A DNA stretch of 46,547 bases. It comes from Clostridiales bacterium. GTDB lineage: Bacteria > Bacillota > Clostridia > Lachnospirales > Lachnospiraceae. The position numbers and the translations under genes are program-made. The notes beneath the pieces were generated by a model. That model was not told the origin of the DNA. It was given only the letters and a program-made list of their open reading frames with translations, and ran no database searches. Shown one piece after another: positions 207 through 7,662 of the stretch. Numbering within the stretch: the first letter of the stretch is position 1; each line of letters begins with the position of its first letter. The stretch lies in assembly GCA_012519695.1 (NCBI GenBank), contig JAAYPT010000010.1, positions 1 through 46,547 of the forward strand. The letters run 5' to 3'.

Positions 207-446
207 ATGAAAAGAGTAAAAGCAGCATGTATTACACAGACATTACATTTTCTATTAAAGGAGGATATTCCACATGACTATGCTATAAAACTCGTTTCTG
301 AGGAAGTAAAGAAATACAAAGGACATCTTGATAAAAACAGAATAAAGTATAAAATTCTTTCAGAAGAAACACAGGCTGATGGTTCTGTTATTATCGAAAT
401 TAAGAAACAATATAATACATCTCCAATAGGAAATTATTTAGATTAG
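207..446 (+). CDS. small conserved hypothetical protein (79 aa)
   Basis: The ATG follows a GGTAGGTAG stretch that can act as a ribosome binding site. The 79-residue product is soluble and charged, with no signal or membrane segment; it looks like one N-terminal helix, a basic middle part and a C-terminal beta hairpin (GSVIIEIKKQYN). I recognise it as a type of short protein common in Lachnospiraceae genomes, but know no function for it. It has its own promoter-like element upstream and a good terminator at 468-506, so it appears to be monocistronic. Confidence 0.75.
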   Translation: MKRVKAACITQTLHFLLKEDIPHDYAIKLVSEEVKKYKGHLDKNRIKYKILSEETQADGSVIIEIKKQYNTSPIGNYLD

Positions 447-467
447 TCATTGGATTAAGTCTGCCAG

Positions 468-506
468 AACGTGCCTTTACCATTAGTGGATAATTGCACG
501 TTTTTT
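468..506 (+). terminator. intrinsic terminator
   Basis: AACGTGC (468-474) pairs with GCACGTT (496-502), and the T6 run begins at 501. It closes the 79-aa gene and lies just upstream of the ribosome binding site of the next gene. Confidence 0.75.
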
Positions 507-526
507 ATATAGCGAGGTGAGTGTTA

Positions 527-991: not shown

Positions 992-1021
992 TTGCATTTA
1001 ATATTTGTAATTTGGTAAAAT
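992..1021 (+). promoter_or_regulatory. candidate promoter of the MFS leader
   Basis: TTGCAT (992-997) and TAAAAT (1016-1021) are 18 bp apart. The region is AT-rich, so chance matches are possible. If it is real, transcription starts near 1028, just before the terminator hairpin at 1052-1087. Confidence 0.35.
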
Positions 1022-1051
1022 AAACTTTGCGCAAGAGGAAACGATATTTGA

Positions 1052-1087
1052 GAAGATATGACACAGAAATGCATATCTTCTTTTTTT
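1052..1087 (+). terminator. strong intrinsic terminator in the leader of the MFS operon
   Basis: A perfect 9-bp stem (GAAGATATG at 1052-1060 with CATATCTTC at 1072-1080) is followed at once by seven T residues. It lies ~140 bases after the preceding gene and only ~20 bases before the ribosome binding site of the next one. This position fits an attenuator as well as an ordinary terminator. Confidence 0.8.
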
Positions 1088-1136
1088 GCGCATTTTTACT
1101 AAAAATAAGGAGGCAGAAAATGAAGAATGTGATTCA

Positions 1137-1298: not shown

Positions 1299-2704
1299 TG
1301 AATAGTAAAGTAAAAGTACCAGCAAAACTTGCATTGTCTGTAGTTGCAGCTTGTCTGGTATCATTTTGTGGTTTGATTACGGAAACAGCAGTAAATATAG
1401 CATTTCCGGCAGTAATGAGTACATTTGGTGTATCAACAGAGATGGTTCAGTGGCTTACAACAGGAAACTTGTTGGTTGTGGCAATGATTACACCATTATC
1501 AGCTTTTTTACAGAAACGCTTTAAATTAAAGCAGTTATTTATATTTGGAACGATGTGTTTTGTTGTAGGAACAGTGGTAGCGATTTTTTCTCCCAATTTT
1601 ACATTTTTGCTGCTGGCAAGATTGATTCAGGGAATTGGAACCGGAGTAGGTGTGCCGATTGCGTTCTGTATTATTTTGGAACAGATACCATTTGAAAAAG
1701 TAGGAACTTATATGGGATATGGTGCATTGGTATCAGCGGCAGCTCCTGCATTAGGGCCTACATATGGAGGCATTGTAAACCAGACTTTAGGCTGGAGATA
1801 CATTTTTGTGCTTTTAATTCCTGTTTTGATTATTACGCTCATTCTTGGAATCGCAACAATAGAAGAAAAACATGAGCCTGAGAAAGTACCGGCAGATATC
1901 TGGGGAATCATCTTTATTATGCTGACATTTTTAGGACTTGTTTATGGATTTGCAAATATAGCAGCTTTTCAGAAGAATCCAATCGTGGAAGTCGCAGCAT
2001 TTGCAATGGGAATTGTAGCGTTAATATTATTTGTAAATCACTGCAAAAAATGTGAGAATTCATTGATTGATATGAGCATTTTTAAGAACATCCCATTTGT
2101 CTGCCACTTGGTAGCTTTTTTCTTAATTAATGCCATAATGCTTGGAACAAGCTTTCTTTTACCAAACTATTTACAGGTGGCACTTTTATGTGAATCTATG
2201 ATTGCGGGATTTATGATTCTTCCGGGAGCTGGATTAAATGCTCTTATGGGACCTTTCGGTGGTGCAGCATTGGATAAAATCGGGGCGAAATTTCCAATTA
2301 TGGTTGGAACAGGACTTATGACAATAGGTATCGTCTTATTTGCTGTATTTGGAATGAAACTAAATACAGGAATGATTATCGGGTTTTATATTATTTTTGG
2401 GATTGGATGTGGAATTGCATTTGGAAATACAATGACTGTTGGAAATTTAAGACTTCCGGTGGGACAGAAAGCATATGGTAATACATGCTTTAATACATTG
2501 ATGCAGTTTGCAGGAGCTGTTGGAACCAGCGTTTGTGCAGCCTTGGTGGCAGCAGCGCAGATGCAGAATAATTCTTTCAGCCATGAGCAAAAAACGGTAG
2601 CAGGATCTACACATGGTTTTATATTTTTGCTGATACTTGCGGTTGTATGTTTGATCCTTCAGATTGTTGGCTTTAAAAATTATGAAAAGACAGAAGAACA
2701 GTAA
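1298..2704 (+). CDS. MFS multidrug exporter, DHA2 (EmrB/QacA) family
   Basis: The 468-residue product is an integral membrane proton-driven exporter with 14 predicted transmembrane segments, the usual DHA2 count and length. Visible family marks are the N-terminal helix with ETAVNIAFPAV, the first loop QWLTTGNLLVVAMITPLSA, motif A-like basic residues (QKRFKLKQ), the motif B-like RLIQGIGTG and the antiporter motif C-like ALGPTYGG near residue 160. The start ATG overlaps the stop of the 53-aa frame. Substrates cannot be told from sequence; toxic organic compounds or antibiotics are the usual ones. The upstream leader with a terminator and small open frames suggests inducible expression. Confidence 0.9.
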   Translation: MNSKVKVPAKLALSVVAACLVSFCGLITETAVNIAFPAVMSTFGVSTEMVQWLTTGNLLVVAMITPLSAFLQKRFKLKQLFIFGTMCFVVGTVVAIFSPNFTFLLLARLIQGIGTGVGVPIAFCIILEQIPFEKVGTYMGYGALVSAAAPALGPTYGGIVNQTLGWRYIFVLLIPVLIITLILGIATIEEKHEPEKVPADIWGIIFIMLTFLGLVYGFANIAAFQKNPIVEVAAFAMGIVALILFVNHCKKCENSLIDMSIFKNIPFVCHLVAFFLINAIMLGTSFLLPNYLQVALLCESMIAGFMILPGAGLNALMGPFGGAALDKIGAKFPIMVGTGLMTIGIVLFAVFGMKLNTGMIIGFYIIFGIGCGIAFGNTMTVGNLRLPVGQKAYGNTCFNTLMQFAGAVGTSVCAALVAAAQMQNNSFSHEQKTVAGSTHGFIFLLILAVVCLILQIVGFKNYEKTEEQ

Positions 2705-2708
2705 AAAT

Positions 2709-2744
2709 AAGAGGCATGAATTCCGGTAGGGGTTCATGCCTCTT
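2709..2744. terminator. hairpin between MFS gene and nitroreductase remnant
   Basis: A perfect 12-bp stem (AAGAGGCATGAA at 2709-2720 with TTCATGCCTCTT at 2733-2744) begins five bases after the exporter stop codon. The following bases are not a clean T run. It may serve both strands, since the remnant gene on the minus strand ends at 2749. Confidence 0.65.
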
Positions 2745-2748
2745 GCCA

Positions 2749-2973
2749 TTATAAAACATAGTGTATACGTTGTTTATCAAAACGATCTTGCTGAGAGTGG
2801 ATTGATTCCGGATAACCACATGGAATAATAGCAAAAGCATCCAAATTTTCCGGTATGTTCAGTACAGTGCGGACAGCATCCATTCGCTCTTTCAGAGGAG
2901 CAATTCCAAGCCAGACAGCACCAAGTTCGAGGAAGTCCGAAAGCAAAGCATTTAATCTGACAGTAGTACCAAA
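2749..2973 (-). pseudogene. nitroreductase C-terminal remnant
   Basis: Only the last ~70 codons of a nitroreductase-family flavoprotein remain. Visible are the helix leading into LGAVWLGIAP, then ERMDAVRTVLNIPEN, AIIPCGYPES and the C-terminal DRFDKQRIHYV, all typical of the FMN-binding C-terminal third of the NfnB/RutE-type fold. The N-terminal two thirds, with the dimer core and most FMN contacts, are absent. The frame upstream of ~2970 loses similarity, and the next bases are the promoter of the MATE gene running the other way. No proper start codon or ribosome binding site exists. It is probably a deletion relic left by a rearrangement between the two exporter genes. Confidence 0.7.
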
Positions 2974-2990
2974 TCGGAGAAACTTTTTGT

Positions 2991-3019
2991 TTGACTTTTT
3001 TGAAAATGTGAAATATAAT
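2991..3019 (+). promoter_or_regulatory. sigma-A promoter of the MATE leader
   Basis: TTGACT (2991-2996), a 17-bp spacer and a perfect TATAAT (3014-3019) form one of the best promoters in the window. Transcription would start near 3026, immediately before the first of the two tandem hairpins. Confidence 0.8.
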
Positions 3020-3026
3020 AATTTTC

Positions 3027-3157
3027 AAACGAGTAGCAAACTAGCGTAAATCCAGTTTTTGCCACTCGTTTTTCTATGTTAAAATTTATAATGCCATTAA
3101 AAAGTGTGTAGCTTATCAGCGTAAGTCCAGCTTATGAGATAAGTGCACACTTTTTTT
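3027..3157 (+). promoter_or_regulatory. tandem hairpin/terminator leader, candidate riboswitch
   Basis: Two similar units lie between the promoter and the MATE gene. Unit A has outer arms AACGAGT (3028-3034) and ACTCGTT (3064-3070) followed by a T run. Unit B has outer arms AAAGTGTG (3101-3108) and CACACTTT (3146-3153) with seven T's. Both contain GTAGC near the 5' arm and a shared core AGCGTAARTCCAG (3043-3055 and 3118-3130). Inside the core a small stem around loop TCCAG changes in concert: AAA/TTT in A and AAG/CTT in B. Conserved loop, covarying stem, promoter in front and U tract behind point to a ligand-controlled attenuator. The guanidine-IV (mepA) riboswitch class, known upstream of MATE genes in Clostridia, is the leading named candidate, but I cannot confirm the consensus from memory. 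Confidence 0.65.
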
Positions 3158-3184
3158 ATGCAGAAAAAGGAGGATTAAGTTAGA

Positions 3185-4552
3185 ATGGCAGAAAGTAACA
3201 AGATGAAGGAGATGCCGGTGAATAAGCTTATGGTTCAGATGGGAATACCGATGATCTTATCTATGGCATTGCAGGCAGTCTATAATATTGTAGATAGTGC
3301 CTTTGTTGGAAACATGAAAGTGGGAAGTGAAGCAGCACTTAATGCGCTTACACTGGTTTTCCCGGTTCAGATGCTTATGGTAGCAGTTGGAATCGGAACA
3401 GGTGTGGGGACAAATGCGCTTCTGGCAAGGACTCTGGGACAAGGAAACACGAAAAAAGCAGCGAAGGTTGCAGGAAACAGTCTGTTTTTGGGAGTGATTA
3501 TTTATGCGGTATGTCTGCTGTTTGGAATTTTTGGGGTAAAGGCATACATTTCGTCGCAGACAGTTGATTCGGAAGTTATTTCAATGGGAACAAGCTATCT
3601 TAGAATATGTTGTGTGATTTCTTTTGGAATTATTTTTTTCTCATTATTTGAAAAGCTGTTACAGGCAACAGGACGATCACTTTATTCAACAATCGGTCAG
3701 GTAGTGGGTGCTGTAGTAAATATTATTCTTGATCCTATCATGATCTATGGTATCGGACCTGTTCCGGAAATGGGAGTAGAGGGTGCTGCGTATGCAACTG
3801 TAATCGGTCAGGTTGTATCAGCAGTTTTGTTATTTGTTTTCCATGTAAAATTAAATAAAGAGTTTGAGCATGGAGTGAAGTATATGAAACCGGATGCGGG
3901 AATTATTAAGGAAATTTATGCAATAGGACTTCCGGCAATCATTGCACAGGCACTTATGTCTATCATGGTTTATGTTATGAATCTGATTTTGAAGTTTAGT
4001 CCTTCTGCACAGACCGCATACGGACTGTTCTACAAAGTGCAGCAGTTTGTGCTGTTCCTTGCATTTGGATTGAGAGATGCAATCACACCGATTATTGCTT
4101 TTGCATACGGAATGGGAAGCAAAAAGAGAATAAAAGACGGAATCAAATATGGTCTGATCTATACGATTGTGCTTATGATTATCGGGGTGGCAATTACAGA
4201 AAGCTTTCCGGGAGCCTTTGCAACTTTATTTAATGCCGGACAGTCAAGAGAATATTTTATCAGTGCAATGCGAATTATCTCCATCAGCTTTATTTTTGCA
4301 GGAATCAATGTAGCATACCAGGGAATTTATCAGGCATTGAACGGAGGTATCGAATCACTTGTGATTTCATTGCTCAGACAGCTTGTAATCATATTACCGC
4401 TAGCCGGAATTTTTTCAATTTTTGTTAAAAATGGTCAGATGGGAGTTTCGCTGATCTGGTGGGCATTTCCGATAACGGAGCTTGTAGCGTGTCTGGTGGG
4501 ATATGCATTTTTAAAGAGAATCAAAAAGAACAAAGTGGACAGTTTAGGTTAA
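3185..4552 (+). CDS. MATE family multidrug exporter (MepA-like)
   Basis: The 455-residue product is a 12-helix Na+- or H+-coupled exporter of the DinF/MepA-like branch, full length for the family. The N-terminus has [24 protein letters not shown], the usual first-helix MATE signature, and the second half repeats it ([19 protein letters not shown]). The ATG lies 11 bases after AGGAGG (3168-3173). The gene follows a consensus promoter and a two-hairpin leader that probably controls read-through. It is followed after 13 bases by a cytidylate-kinase-like gene, so the two are likely co-transcribed. Substrates are not predictable from sequence; guanidinium-type or cationic compounds would fit if the leader is a guanidine sensor. 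Confidence 0.92.
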
Positions 4553-4565
4553 GGAGGAATTGGCA

Positions 4566-5156
4566 ATGTCAAAAAGAATCATTACAATCAGCAGAGAGTT
4601 TGGAAGTGGTGGACGCTTTATTGGAGAGGAAGTGGCAAAGAAGCTTGGAATTGCCTATTATGACAAAGATATTATAGGTCAGATTGCTGAAAAGTCGGGG
4701 TTATCACCGGAGTATATTCAGGCAAATGCAGAATTATCACCAAAGAAAGGTTTGTTTGCATATGCTTTTTCAGGACGTGATATTACAGGAAAATCGGTGG
4801 AAGATATGGTGTATGAAGCACAGAGAAAAGTGATTTTGGAAATTGCAGAAAAAGAAGATTGTGTGATTATAGGAAGAAATGCAGACTTTATCTTAAAGGA
4901 CAGAGGTGATGTGTTGAATGTTTTTATACATGGGGATATGACACAAAAAATGCAGCGCATATGTAAGCTATATAATGTTACGGAAGCTGATGCTGTGAAA
5001 ATGATAAATGATACAGATAAAAGACGCAGAACAAATTATAATTTCTATACGGAACAAAAGTGGGGCATGGCAACCAATTATACGTTGTCTTTGAATAGTT
5101 CAGTGTTGGGGTATGATATGTGCCAACAAATTATAATAGATTGTACAAAACTATAA
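4566..5156 (+). CDS. cytidylate kinase-like family protein
   Basis: This 196-residue protein belongs to the cytidylate kinase-like family of P-loop proteins common in Clostridia. The start ATG lies 8 bases after AAGGAGG (4551-4557); a TTG two codons upstream is too close to that site. The N-terminus ITISREFGSGGRFIGEEVAKKLG is the family form of the P loop, where a GSGG motif replaces the classic GKT/S. It is followed by YYDKDII and the VIIGRNADFIL strand-loop, and then an Arg-rich stretch (DTDKRRRTNYNFYT) like the lid of CMP kinase. Substrate and role are unknown for the family; a nucleoside monophosphate kinase activity is only inferred. It is probably co-transcribed with the MATE gene. Confidence 0.85.
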   Translation: MSKRIITISREFGSGGRFIGEEVAKKLGIAYYDKDIIGQIAEKSGLSPEYIQANAELSPKKGLFAYAFSGRDITGKSVEDMVYEAQRKVILEIAEKEDCVIIGRNADFILKDRGDVLNVFIHGDMTQKMQRICKLYNVTEADAVKMINDTDKRRRTNYNFYTEQKWGMATNYTLSLNSSVLGYDMCQQIIIDCTKL

Positions 5157-7245: not shown

Positions 7246-7662
7246 ATGGACATTAATTTAGGAAAGCTGACGGTTTATTTTGAAAATCCATTTTGGGTTG
7301 GTGTATTTGAGCGTATAGAGGGCGGAAAGTTATCTGTATGCAAAGTTACATTTGGAGCAGAACCAAAGGATTATGAAATTTGGGAGTTTGCACTAAAAAA
7401 TTATAGTCGGCTTAGGTTTAGTCCGTCTGTTGATTTGGTTGTAAAAAAGGAGGCAACGAATCCGAAACGGATACAGAGGGAATTGCGAAAACAATCTACT
7501 GTTTCCGGGACAGGGACGAAGTCACAGCAGGCTTTGCAACTACAACGGGAAGAAAACAAATTGATACGAAAAACGGTTAGCCGTGAAAAACAGGATGCCG
7601 AAAAACAGCGACAATTTGAGCTAAAACAACAGAAACGAAAAGAGAAGCATCGGGGCAGATAA
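7246..7662 (+). CDS. yjdF: YjdF family protein (DUF2992)
   Basis: The 138-residue product matches the YjdF family. The N-terminus LTVYFENPFWVGVFERIEGGKL followed by FGAEPKDYEIWEFAL is the family core. The second half has NPKRIQRELRKQ, a GTGTKSQQALQLQREENK stretch and a long basic helix rich in Lys, Arg and Gln. The role of the protein is not known; because its riboswitch senses aza-aromatic compounds, a part in detoxifying or modifying them has been proposed. The ribosome binding site CAGGAGGG lies ideally before the ATG. The gene is single, with a short hairpin at its stop codon. Confidence 0.93.
   Translation: MDINLGKLTVYFENPFWVGVFERIEGGKLSVCKVTFGAEPKDYEIWEFALKNYSRLRFSPSVDLVVKKEATNPKRIQRELRKQSTVSGTGTKSQQALQLQREENKLIRKTVSREKQDAEKQRQFELKQQKRKEKHRGR

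Follow-up and report, generated by a model that had tools for sequence, protein, structure and literature searches.

Tandem units in front of a MATE gene

The DNA analysed here, a stretch of 46,547 nt from a Clostridiales bacterium of the Lachnospiraceae (contig JAAYPT010000010.1; the window, below), carries a gene for a MATE family efflux transporter that is preceded by a promoter and by two similar hairpin/terminator units in tandem (Table 1). A first-pass annotation had described this arrangement, and its promoter, its two units with a shared core and the MATE gene behind them were all borne out. In both units, GTAGC-N5-AGCGTAARTCCAG is accompanied by a closing stem and a run of T. By all computed evidence, the repeated element is a conserved, covarying transcription attenuator, which supports the earlier view that an RNA element linked to termination is duplicated in front of the MATE gene. 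On the predicted folds, it most likely represents a terminator-embedded riboswitch class outside Rfam 15, present here in tandem.

Table 1. Features of the locus and of the upstream small-protein gene (positions in the window)
Feature	Position	Strand	Details
79-aa protein MKRVKAAC...QTLHFLLKED	207-446	+	open reading frame (ORF); six relatives directly follow the motif
Promoter	2991-3019	+	-35 TTGACT 2991-2996, 17 nt spacer, -10 TATAAT 3014-3019; 11/12 consensus bases
Unit 1, conserved hairpin (proposed antiterminator/aptamer)	3027-3057	+	covariance model R1, 44.9 bits, E 5.8e-10 (training sequence)
Unit 1, terminator, type A	3027-3073	+	fold -14.0 kcal/mol (3027-3075); U run 3069-3073
TATAAT, possible second -10	3087-3092	+	by sequence; no recognisable -35; promoter scan silent
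Unit 2, conserved hairpin	3102-3132	+	R1, 44.4 bits, E 8e-10 (training sequence); P1/P2 covariation in relatives
Unit 2, terminator, type A	3102-3157	+	fold -22.5 kcal/mol (3102-3155); U run 3151-3157
MATE family efflux transporter, presumed target	3185-4552	+	MatE PF01554, E 2e-36; TIGR00797, E 1.1e-57, over cut-off
Cytidylate-kinase-like gene	4566-5156	+	Cytidylate_kin2 PF13189, E 5e-55 (4566-5153)

In unit 1, the outer helix P1 is formed by 3028-3030 and 3055-3057, with 3027-3058 as a possible fourth pair. It encloses the 5' loop GAGUA (3031-3035), the inner helix P2 (G3036-C3045 and C3037-G3044) and the 3' loop GUAAAUCC-A (3046-3054). In unit 2, P1 pairs 3103-3105 with 3130-3132, the 5' loop is GUGUA (3106-3110), P2 consists of G3111-C3120 and C3112-G3119, and the 3' loop is GUAAGUCC-A (3121-3129). 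The region 3025-3079 around unit 1 folds with -14.5 kcal/mol (z -4.1) and the region 3095-3160 around unit 2 with -25.8 kcal/mol (z -6.6); for each, none of 200 dinucleotide shuffles was as good. In the terminator of unit 1, P1 and GAGUAGC form the 5' arm and the core sits in the loop; its T run is short (TTTTT, next base C). A simple terminator scan of 2700-3400 reported no terminator, because it allowed loops of 3-8 nt and these stems have internal loops. Judged by the promoter sequence, transcription is expected to start at ~3026, about the first base of unit 1. A separate promoter for unit 2, using the TATAAT between the units, is possible.

The covariance model R1, which describes the element, had both window units among its training sequences, and this qualifies their scores. 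In the source genome it finds these two units, and no others, at E <= 0.01. The GTAGC-N-core pattern likewise occurs there at two sites, the same two units; a third match to the bare core (L003) was rejected as coding sequence inside an ORF.

A short hairpin with covarying stems

The consensus, of which the first-pass annotation had captured a part, is a hairpin of ~31 nt, NNNY-GNGUA-GC..GC-GUAARUCC-R-RNNN, in which NNNY and RNNN form P1 and GC..GC forms P2. P1 (3-4 bp) joins the 3-4 nt directly 5' of GNGUAGC to the 3-4 nt directly 3' of UCCR. The 5' loop reads GNG(U/c)(A/g/u), P2 has two near-fixed pairs and a variable loop, and the 3' loop is GUAARUCC plus R. The statistics below refer mainly to 175 instances at 154 loci with 158 distinct sequences, drawn from a part of the R1 genome matches and from 60 fetched regions, with matches kept down to E 0.029. 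Over the distinct sequences both G of GNG, UAA and CC are invariant, which is partly an effect of how relatives were selected.

Both helices covary. In the first alignment (66 core-pattern instances), the flanking NNNY and RNNN pair with each other: P1 cells are 97.5% paired, and 53 cells are changed on both sides compared to 15.1 in shuffles. For 46 distinct rows, P1 pairing amounts to 0.89 in register and drops to 0.37-0.46 when the register is shifted (four shifts), kinship being ignored here as well. Over the 158 distinct sequences, the second P1 pair is formed in 0.994 versus 0.461 after shuffling (z 14.8), the first and third pairs reach z 9.1 and the two P2 pairs z 11.4 and 13.1, all by shuffle statistics that ignore kinship among sequences. 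Distant matches show P2 swaps from GC to AU and from CG to UA, in 5 sequences each. Counts on the alignments A1, A2 and A3 agree with this result; A1 was picked with the core and the Y preset in the pattern, so that its invariant columns are built in and its P1 partners are unselected, and A2 and A3 were fitted to the model. The presence of G-U pairs among the covarying pairs points to an RNA rather than a DNA element. The first-pass annotation had instead proposed covariation of a small inner stem around TCCAG (AAA/TTT against AAG/CTT). This stem fits the two window units taken alone, but its pairs show no covariation over the 158 distinct sequences (z -0.3, 0 and 0), and it is not conserved.

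That annotation had also tied its reading to homologous units elsewhere. With a threshold of E <= 0.01, R1 found them in 85 of the 299 genomes sampled from the source's family, in 51 of 393 from the class (19 families) and in 13 of 398 from the phylum (five more families). At this threshold, ~4 chance genomes per 400 are nominally allowed, R1 E-values are rough, and with 18-24 candidates scored per genome members may be missed. The class and phylum matches thus span 24 families, some of them with one weak match, and the weakest family assignments are uncertain. A gapped core pattern occurs at 31 sites in 21 of the 299 same-family genomes, versus 3 sites for a reversed control pattern. Another scan of contigs with the core pattern yielded at least 120 stretches. 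From these, 22 loci entered the set of 175; the remainder had no YGN in front of GTAGC, were discarded manually or repeated known loci. R1 applied to 89 of these stretches gave 30 matches at E <= 0.01.

Nine pattern loci judged to be chance or coding matches (L042, L043, L049, L072, L078, L094, L129, L135 and L158) were discarded manually ahead of counting. One of them, L078, later scored 32.3 bits with R1 and is probably a true member. Its motif and T run (2001-2036) lie 5' of an ORF that looks MFS-like by eye, in a metagenome-assembled genome titled planctomycete. This would be either an occurrence outside Bacillota or a misbinned contig. A scan of 37 stretches of viral sequence gave five R1 matches at E <= 0.01 on four contigs. 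On one of them (L337, an IMG/VR contig; 4267-4624, - strand), two strong motifs lie around the small gene for the MKRVKAAC protein and a MATE-like ORF; this region is perhaps flanking host DNA. The matches on L334 and L348 are weak, and no T run was seen within ~100 nt of the match on L327.

In most instances the element lies just behind a -10 box. Such a box, with at least five of six consensus bases, is located 1-12 nt 5' of the motif in 134/174, with a peak at 5-8 nt; a control stretch of equal width, 18-29 nt 5' of the motif, contains one in 21/174. The RNA should therefore begin with P1 itself, which leaves hardly any space for a leader peptide with its ribosome site or for a 5' hairpin.

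Two units within 200 nt were found at 18 places among the 175 instances. At the 11 loci with a tandem of the window type (the window included), unit 1 always reads GAGUAGC...UAAAUCC and unit 2 always GUGUAGC...UAAGUCC. As the two are consistently distinct, selection or descent has maintained them as separate forms, and they are not fresh copies. Tandem riboswitches have been described as yielding complex gene control functions (PMC9481103; here and below, PMC numbers stand for the accessible parts of these papers), and by analogy the tandem units might play such a role here.

Export and detoxification are the common theme of the genes behind the element (family searches were run on representatives of gene clusters). 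For 107 of the 175 instances, the next gene resembles the MATE gene of the window (blastp E <= 1e-5); these correspond to 89 distinct MATE proteins, and tandem units share one. A MATE match on the same strand within 2.5 kb is present for 114/175. In the source genome (3.16 Mb), MatE domain matches number 45, at about two for each protein, and a single one of these genes carries the element at the R1 threshold. In the window, the ATG of the cytidylate-kinase-like gene lies 13 nt past the MATE stop codon, with an alternative TTG start open at 4560, and the gene is presumably co-transcribed with the MATE gene; in L087 and L123, the motif is followed by proteins that look similar to its product by eye. 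Other targets include MFS exporters (clusters of 7 and 3 and a singleton), CarD-like proteins (8 instances), ABC exporters (2), DUF2798 proteins (3) and a cluster without Pfam match (3). Six instances precede relatives of the small protein encoded by ORF 207-446 (66% identity in L255), and for five of these six a MATE match lies no more than 2.5 kb away. Single instances precede genes for UvrA, cyclopropane-synthase, PadR, nitroreductase and flavin-oxidoreductase. At L071, L249 and L280 no ORF was found in the 78-454 nt that remain to the end of the sequence.

Four instances precede a gene whose tannase-like product contains a copper-amine-oxidase N domain. NCBIfam tannase_A matches with E 2e-168 for L307 and over the cut-off at the L197 and L218 sites. 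Among 196 class genomes, four tannase-A genes exceed the cut-off, of which two have the motif (L313, L315) and two do not (L312, L314); two more tannase loci with the motif, L305 and L307, belong to genomes outside the matches of that sample. The tannase and PadR targets suggest aromatic or phenolic signals. This stays a guess, because two of the four sampled tannase-A genes are devoid of the element.

Coupling to termination and competing explanations

A run of at least four T is present within ~70 nt 3' of the motif in all 175 instances. By a strict criterion, the terminators fall into two types: In type A (97/175, including both window units) the GNGUAGC half of the hairpin serves as the 5' arm, in type B (76/175) the GCGUAARUCC half is taken, and in 2/175 neither. 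A fold of -14 kcal/mol or better that sequesters one hairpin half is predicted for 169 of the 175 instances and for 93 of 875 shuffled tails. None of the three P1 pairs is kept in the minimum-energy fold of any instance (0/175). P1 covaries separately inside type A and inside type B, by shuffles that likewise ignore kinship. That two terminator designs consume different halves of one and the same hairpin is, in our view, the best argument for the hairpin as a functional antiterminator. Hairpin and terminator are thus predicted to be mutually exclusive, as in an attenuator of the ON type. The traits expected of a terminator-type riboswitch, a covarying element 5' of genes that excludes an intrinsic terminator, were found, the exclusion on predicted folds.

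It is probable that each unit is a cis-acting transcription attenuator in which the hairpin is an antiterminator that excludes the terminator, that the signal is a small molecule, and that the class lies outside Rfam 15. The computed basis for this comprises sequence conservation, the covarying P1 and P2 helices, a strong terminator that is predicted to exclude the hairpin and be excluded by it, the adjacent -10 box and the gene context; we infer from it the ON direction, the effect of the tandem and a ligand, rather than a protein, as the stabilizing partner. The ~31-nt hairpin, placed at the very start of the mRNA, would present P1 and P2 separated by a 5-by-9 internal loop whose bases are strongly conserved. 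It would compete with an intrinsic terminator that reuses one of its halves, so that only one of the two can form. Without a signal, the terminator, which wins in every minimum-energy fold, would form and the export gene would be off. A signal bound in the internal loop, likely a small molecule, would hold P1 and P2 together, the terminator could not close, and RNA polymerase would read on into the MATE gene. With two complete units in series, both would have to be released for full expression, which could make the switch tighter or steeper.

Several observations weigh against this reading. P1 is short (3-4 bp), and its fourth pair is formed in just 0.63 of the 158 sequences. According to nearest-neighbour rules, the bare P1/P2 fold has +0.9 kcal/mol in unit 1 and +0.6 kcal/mol in unit 2. 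By canonical pairs it is thus unstable and must be held by non-canonical pairs, a ligand or a protein. Under a loose definition, shuffled tails sequester the core in 144/175 folds as well, and this criterion was dropped in favour of the strict one combined with the energy limit; without that limit, 451 of 875 shuffled-tail folds comply with the strict criterion, too. As shuffled tails often sequester the core, the discrimination is due solely to the stability of the real terminators. Furthermore, L005 and L057 are without a clear downstream gene and could be small RNAs.

RNA-binding antiterminator proteins are known from the PyrR, LicT and ANTAR systems. The hairpin might be the site of such a protein answering drugs or stress, with an RNA that binds no small molecule. 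This is an unlikely but serious alternative. The shortness and weakness of the hairpin and the conservation of its internal loop would suit it, and CarD-like proteins, a family of polymerase-binding regulators, are encoded behind 8 of the 175 instances. The 18 tandem pairs suit it as well, as tandems of the pan motif were read as suggesting a dimeric protein (PMC2864571). However, beyond the CarD-like proteins few regulators follow directly (one PadR and two that look like helix-turn-helix proteins by eye), and the spread over 24 families argues against a protein partner, even if some of these families are represented by one weak match.

It is improbable that the units simply act as constitutive terminators, or are small RNAs close to the promoter, and that their core is conserved for another reason such as small RNA function. 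The transcript 5' end at the motif would suit a small RNA, and some copies of the AAA type (L005, L017) have no obvious gene, but 107/175 instances lie directly before MATE genes and others before exporters, and the core is kept although the terminator stem can be built on either half. L005 and L017 combine an AAA-type unit with strong promoter-like sequence and no convincing gene behind it; they could be free-standing small RNAs. A DNA operator for a repressor just 3' of the promoter, to which the position directly after the -10 box would correspond, is very improbable, as P1 and P2 covary, with many G-U pairs in P1, pairing is kept as the sequence changes, and a strong terminator is attached in 169/175. 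A guanidine-IV riboswitch or its variant Gd4v, both of which have MATE targets and conserved bases on the terminator (PMC7736828, PMC9788692), can practically be dismissed on the anatomy described below.

If the attenuator is a riboswitch, it would represent a widespread uncatalogued class (found in 85 of the 299 family genomes) governing multidrug exporters, and its ligand would name a natural substrate of these MATE pumps. The preQ1-I aptamer is among the smallest natural ones known. The element would be about as small and have a rare, terminator-embedded layout, and types A and B would offer a natural comparison of one aptamer coupled to termination in two ways. More tentatively, and doubtful as a whole, Clostridia, among them many that live in the gut, may possess a new ~31-nt riboswitch class that answers a toxic aromatic, possibly plant-phenolic, compound and switches on genes for efflux (MATE, MFS, ABC), for tannase and for the protection of DNA and transcription (UvrA, CarD-like), with terminators that may invade either half and with frequent complete tandems. 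An aromatic or plant-phenolic toxin as ligand is a guess.

Known RNA classes and neighbouring elements

The Rfam search proposed in the first-pass annotation was run and assigned no Rfam 15 family to either unit at the gathering score. Over 701 bases and up to E 10, chance-level matches only were obtained (best E 1.1), and among 20 relatives there was no match except a tRNA in L004. This agrees with a class outside Rfam 15; guanidine-IV, one of the options named in the annotation, was not supported. A description of the motif was not found in the full-text literature, a search to which supplementary alignments and subscription journals were external and in which the motif may bear another name.

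Guanidine-IV (GGAM-1 or mepA motif) is built from two hairpins that a pseudoknot connects, and its conserved nucleotides lie in the second loop (PMC7736828, PMC9788692); these are G62, U63, G66, U67, A71 and G72 in 95 Lla numbering (PMC7736828), and the second hairpin is the terminator (PMC7736828, PMC11611296). It resembles the units in acting by a terminator, in carrying conserved bases on it and in having MATE genes among its targets (PMC7736828, PMC11611296). In contrast, it has two hairpins with a kissing loop and the core GUAGGYCUUAG, which was taken here from two leaders (L318 and L319) and the PMC7736828 numbering and not from a published alignment, whereas each window unit has one hairpin and another core. 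A second hairpin or pseudoknot was not recognised in the units; the -10 position leaves no room for a 5' hairpin, and no dedicated pseudoknot prediction was run. With up to two mismatches, GTAGGYCTTAG matches 14 times in the window (11.8 by chance) and nowhere at 3020-3160, and an exact copy is absent from the source genome. L318 (1330-1455) and L319 are guanidine-IV-like SMR leaders with GUAGGCCUUAG and GUUAGGUCUUAG, respectively, in the terminator loop; they come from the genomes of two motif-bearing relatives, share the guanidine-IV type of architecture and show the bases that PMC7736828 lists. Neither is matched by R1. Rfam 15 did not report these two leaders at the gathering score either, so the lack of an Rfam match leaves some published classes uncovered and is weak evidence on guanidine-IV; the exclusion comes from the anatomy.

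Gd4v also has a terminator hairpin, MATE genes among its targets, a ligand that is not known and an enrichment in the gut, and over half of its members precede transaminase genes (PMC9788692). Compared by description, it differs from the one-hairpin units by the two-hairpin pseudoknot plan of guanidine-IV and an extra hairpin, D2. Guanidine-IV and Gd4v were both rejected, as each unit has one hairpin and no partner hairpin, and the GUAGGYCUUAG core is absent.

By analogy, the closest class in mode of action is the HMP-PP riboswitch (thiS motif). Its conserved bases lie inside an intrinsic terminator, its aptamer and terminator are exclusive, and it is an ON switch (PMC6478431), the direction that the window element would share. 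It differs in its thiamin genes and its pseudoknot (PMC6478431), as against mostly exporters and no recognised pseudoknot here, and in that the terminator of the window element can take either hairpin half; this comparison was made by description, without a sequence alignment. HRC-8-4, a terminator with a conserved tip that has been hypothesised to act like HMP-PP and guanidine-IV, adjoins hvrB and cytochrome c genes (PMC8632094) and is set apart from the units by description.

The window itself contains an azaaromatic (yjdF) riboswitch (RF01764; 7098-7226, + strand; 70.8 bits) directly 5' of a 138-aa ORF at 7246, which would be the usual YjdF target. This class is thought to respond to toxic aromatics, and in this respect it may resemble the units with which it shares the window. 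RF01764 is a larger, multi-stem model and does not match either unit.

Two further hairpins lie upstream. The one at 452-512 (+ strand; z -2.6) is terminator-like and separates ORF 207-446, whose product matches neither Pfam nor NCBIfam families at E 0.001, from ORF 521-910. No R1 motif was found near it. At other loci the R1 motif is followed by relatives of the flanking ORFs (L255; L181 and L189, the latter two with 43% and 33% identity over ~53 aa), and the hairpin at 452-512 is perhaps a decayed copy of the element. At 1020-1092 (+ strand; z -5.8), a strong hairpin with a T run stands right after a -10-like TAAAAT and is free of the R1 motif. It precedes the operon of an EmrB-type MFS exporter (1298-2704, TIGR00711) and looks like another attenuator.
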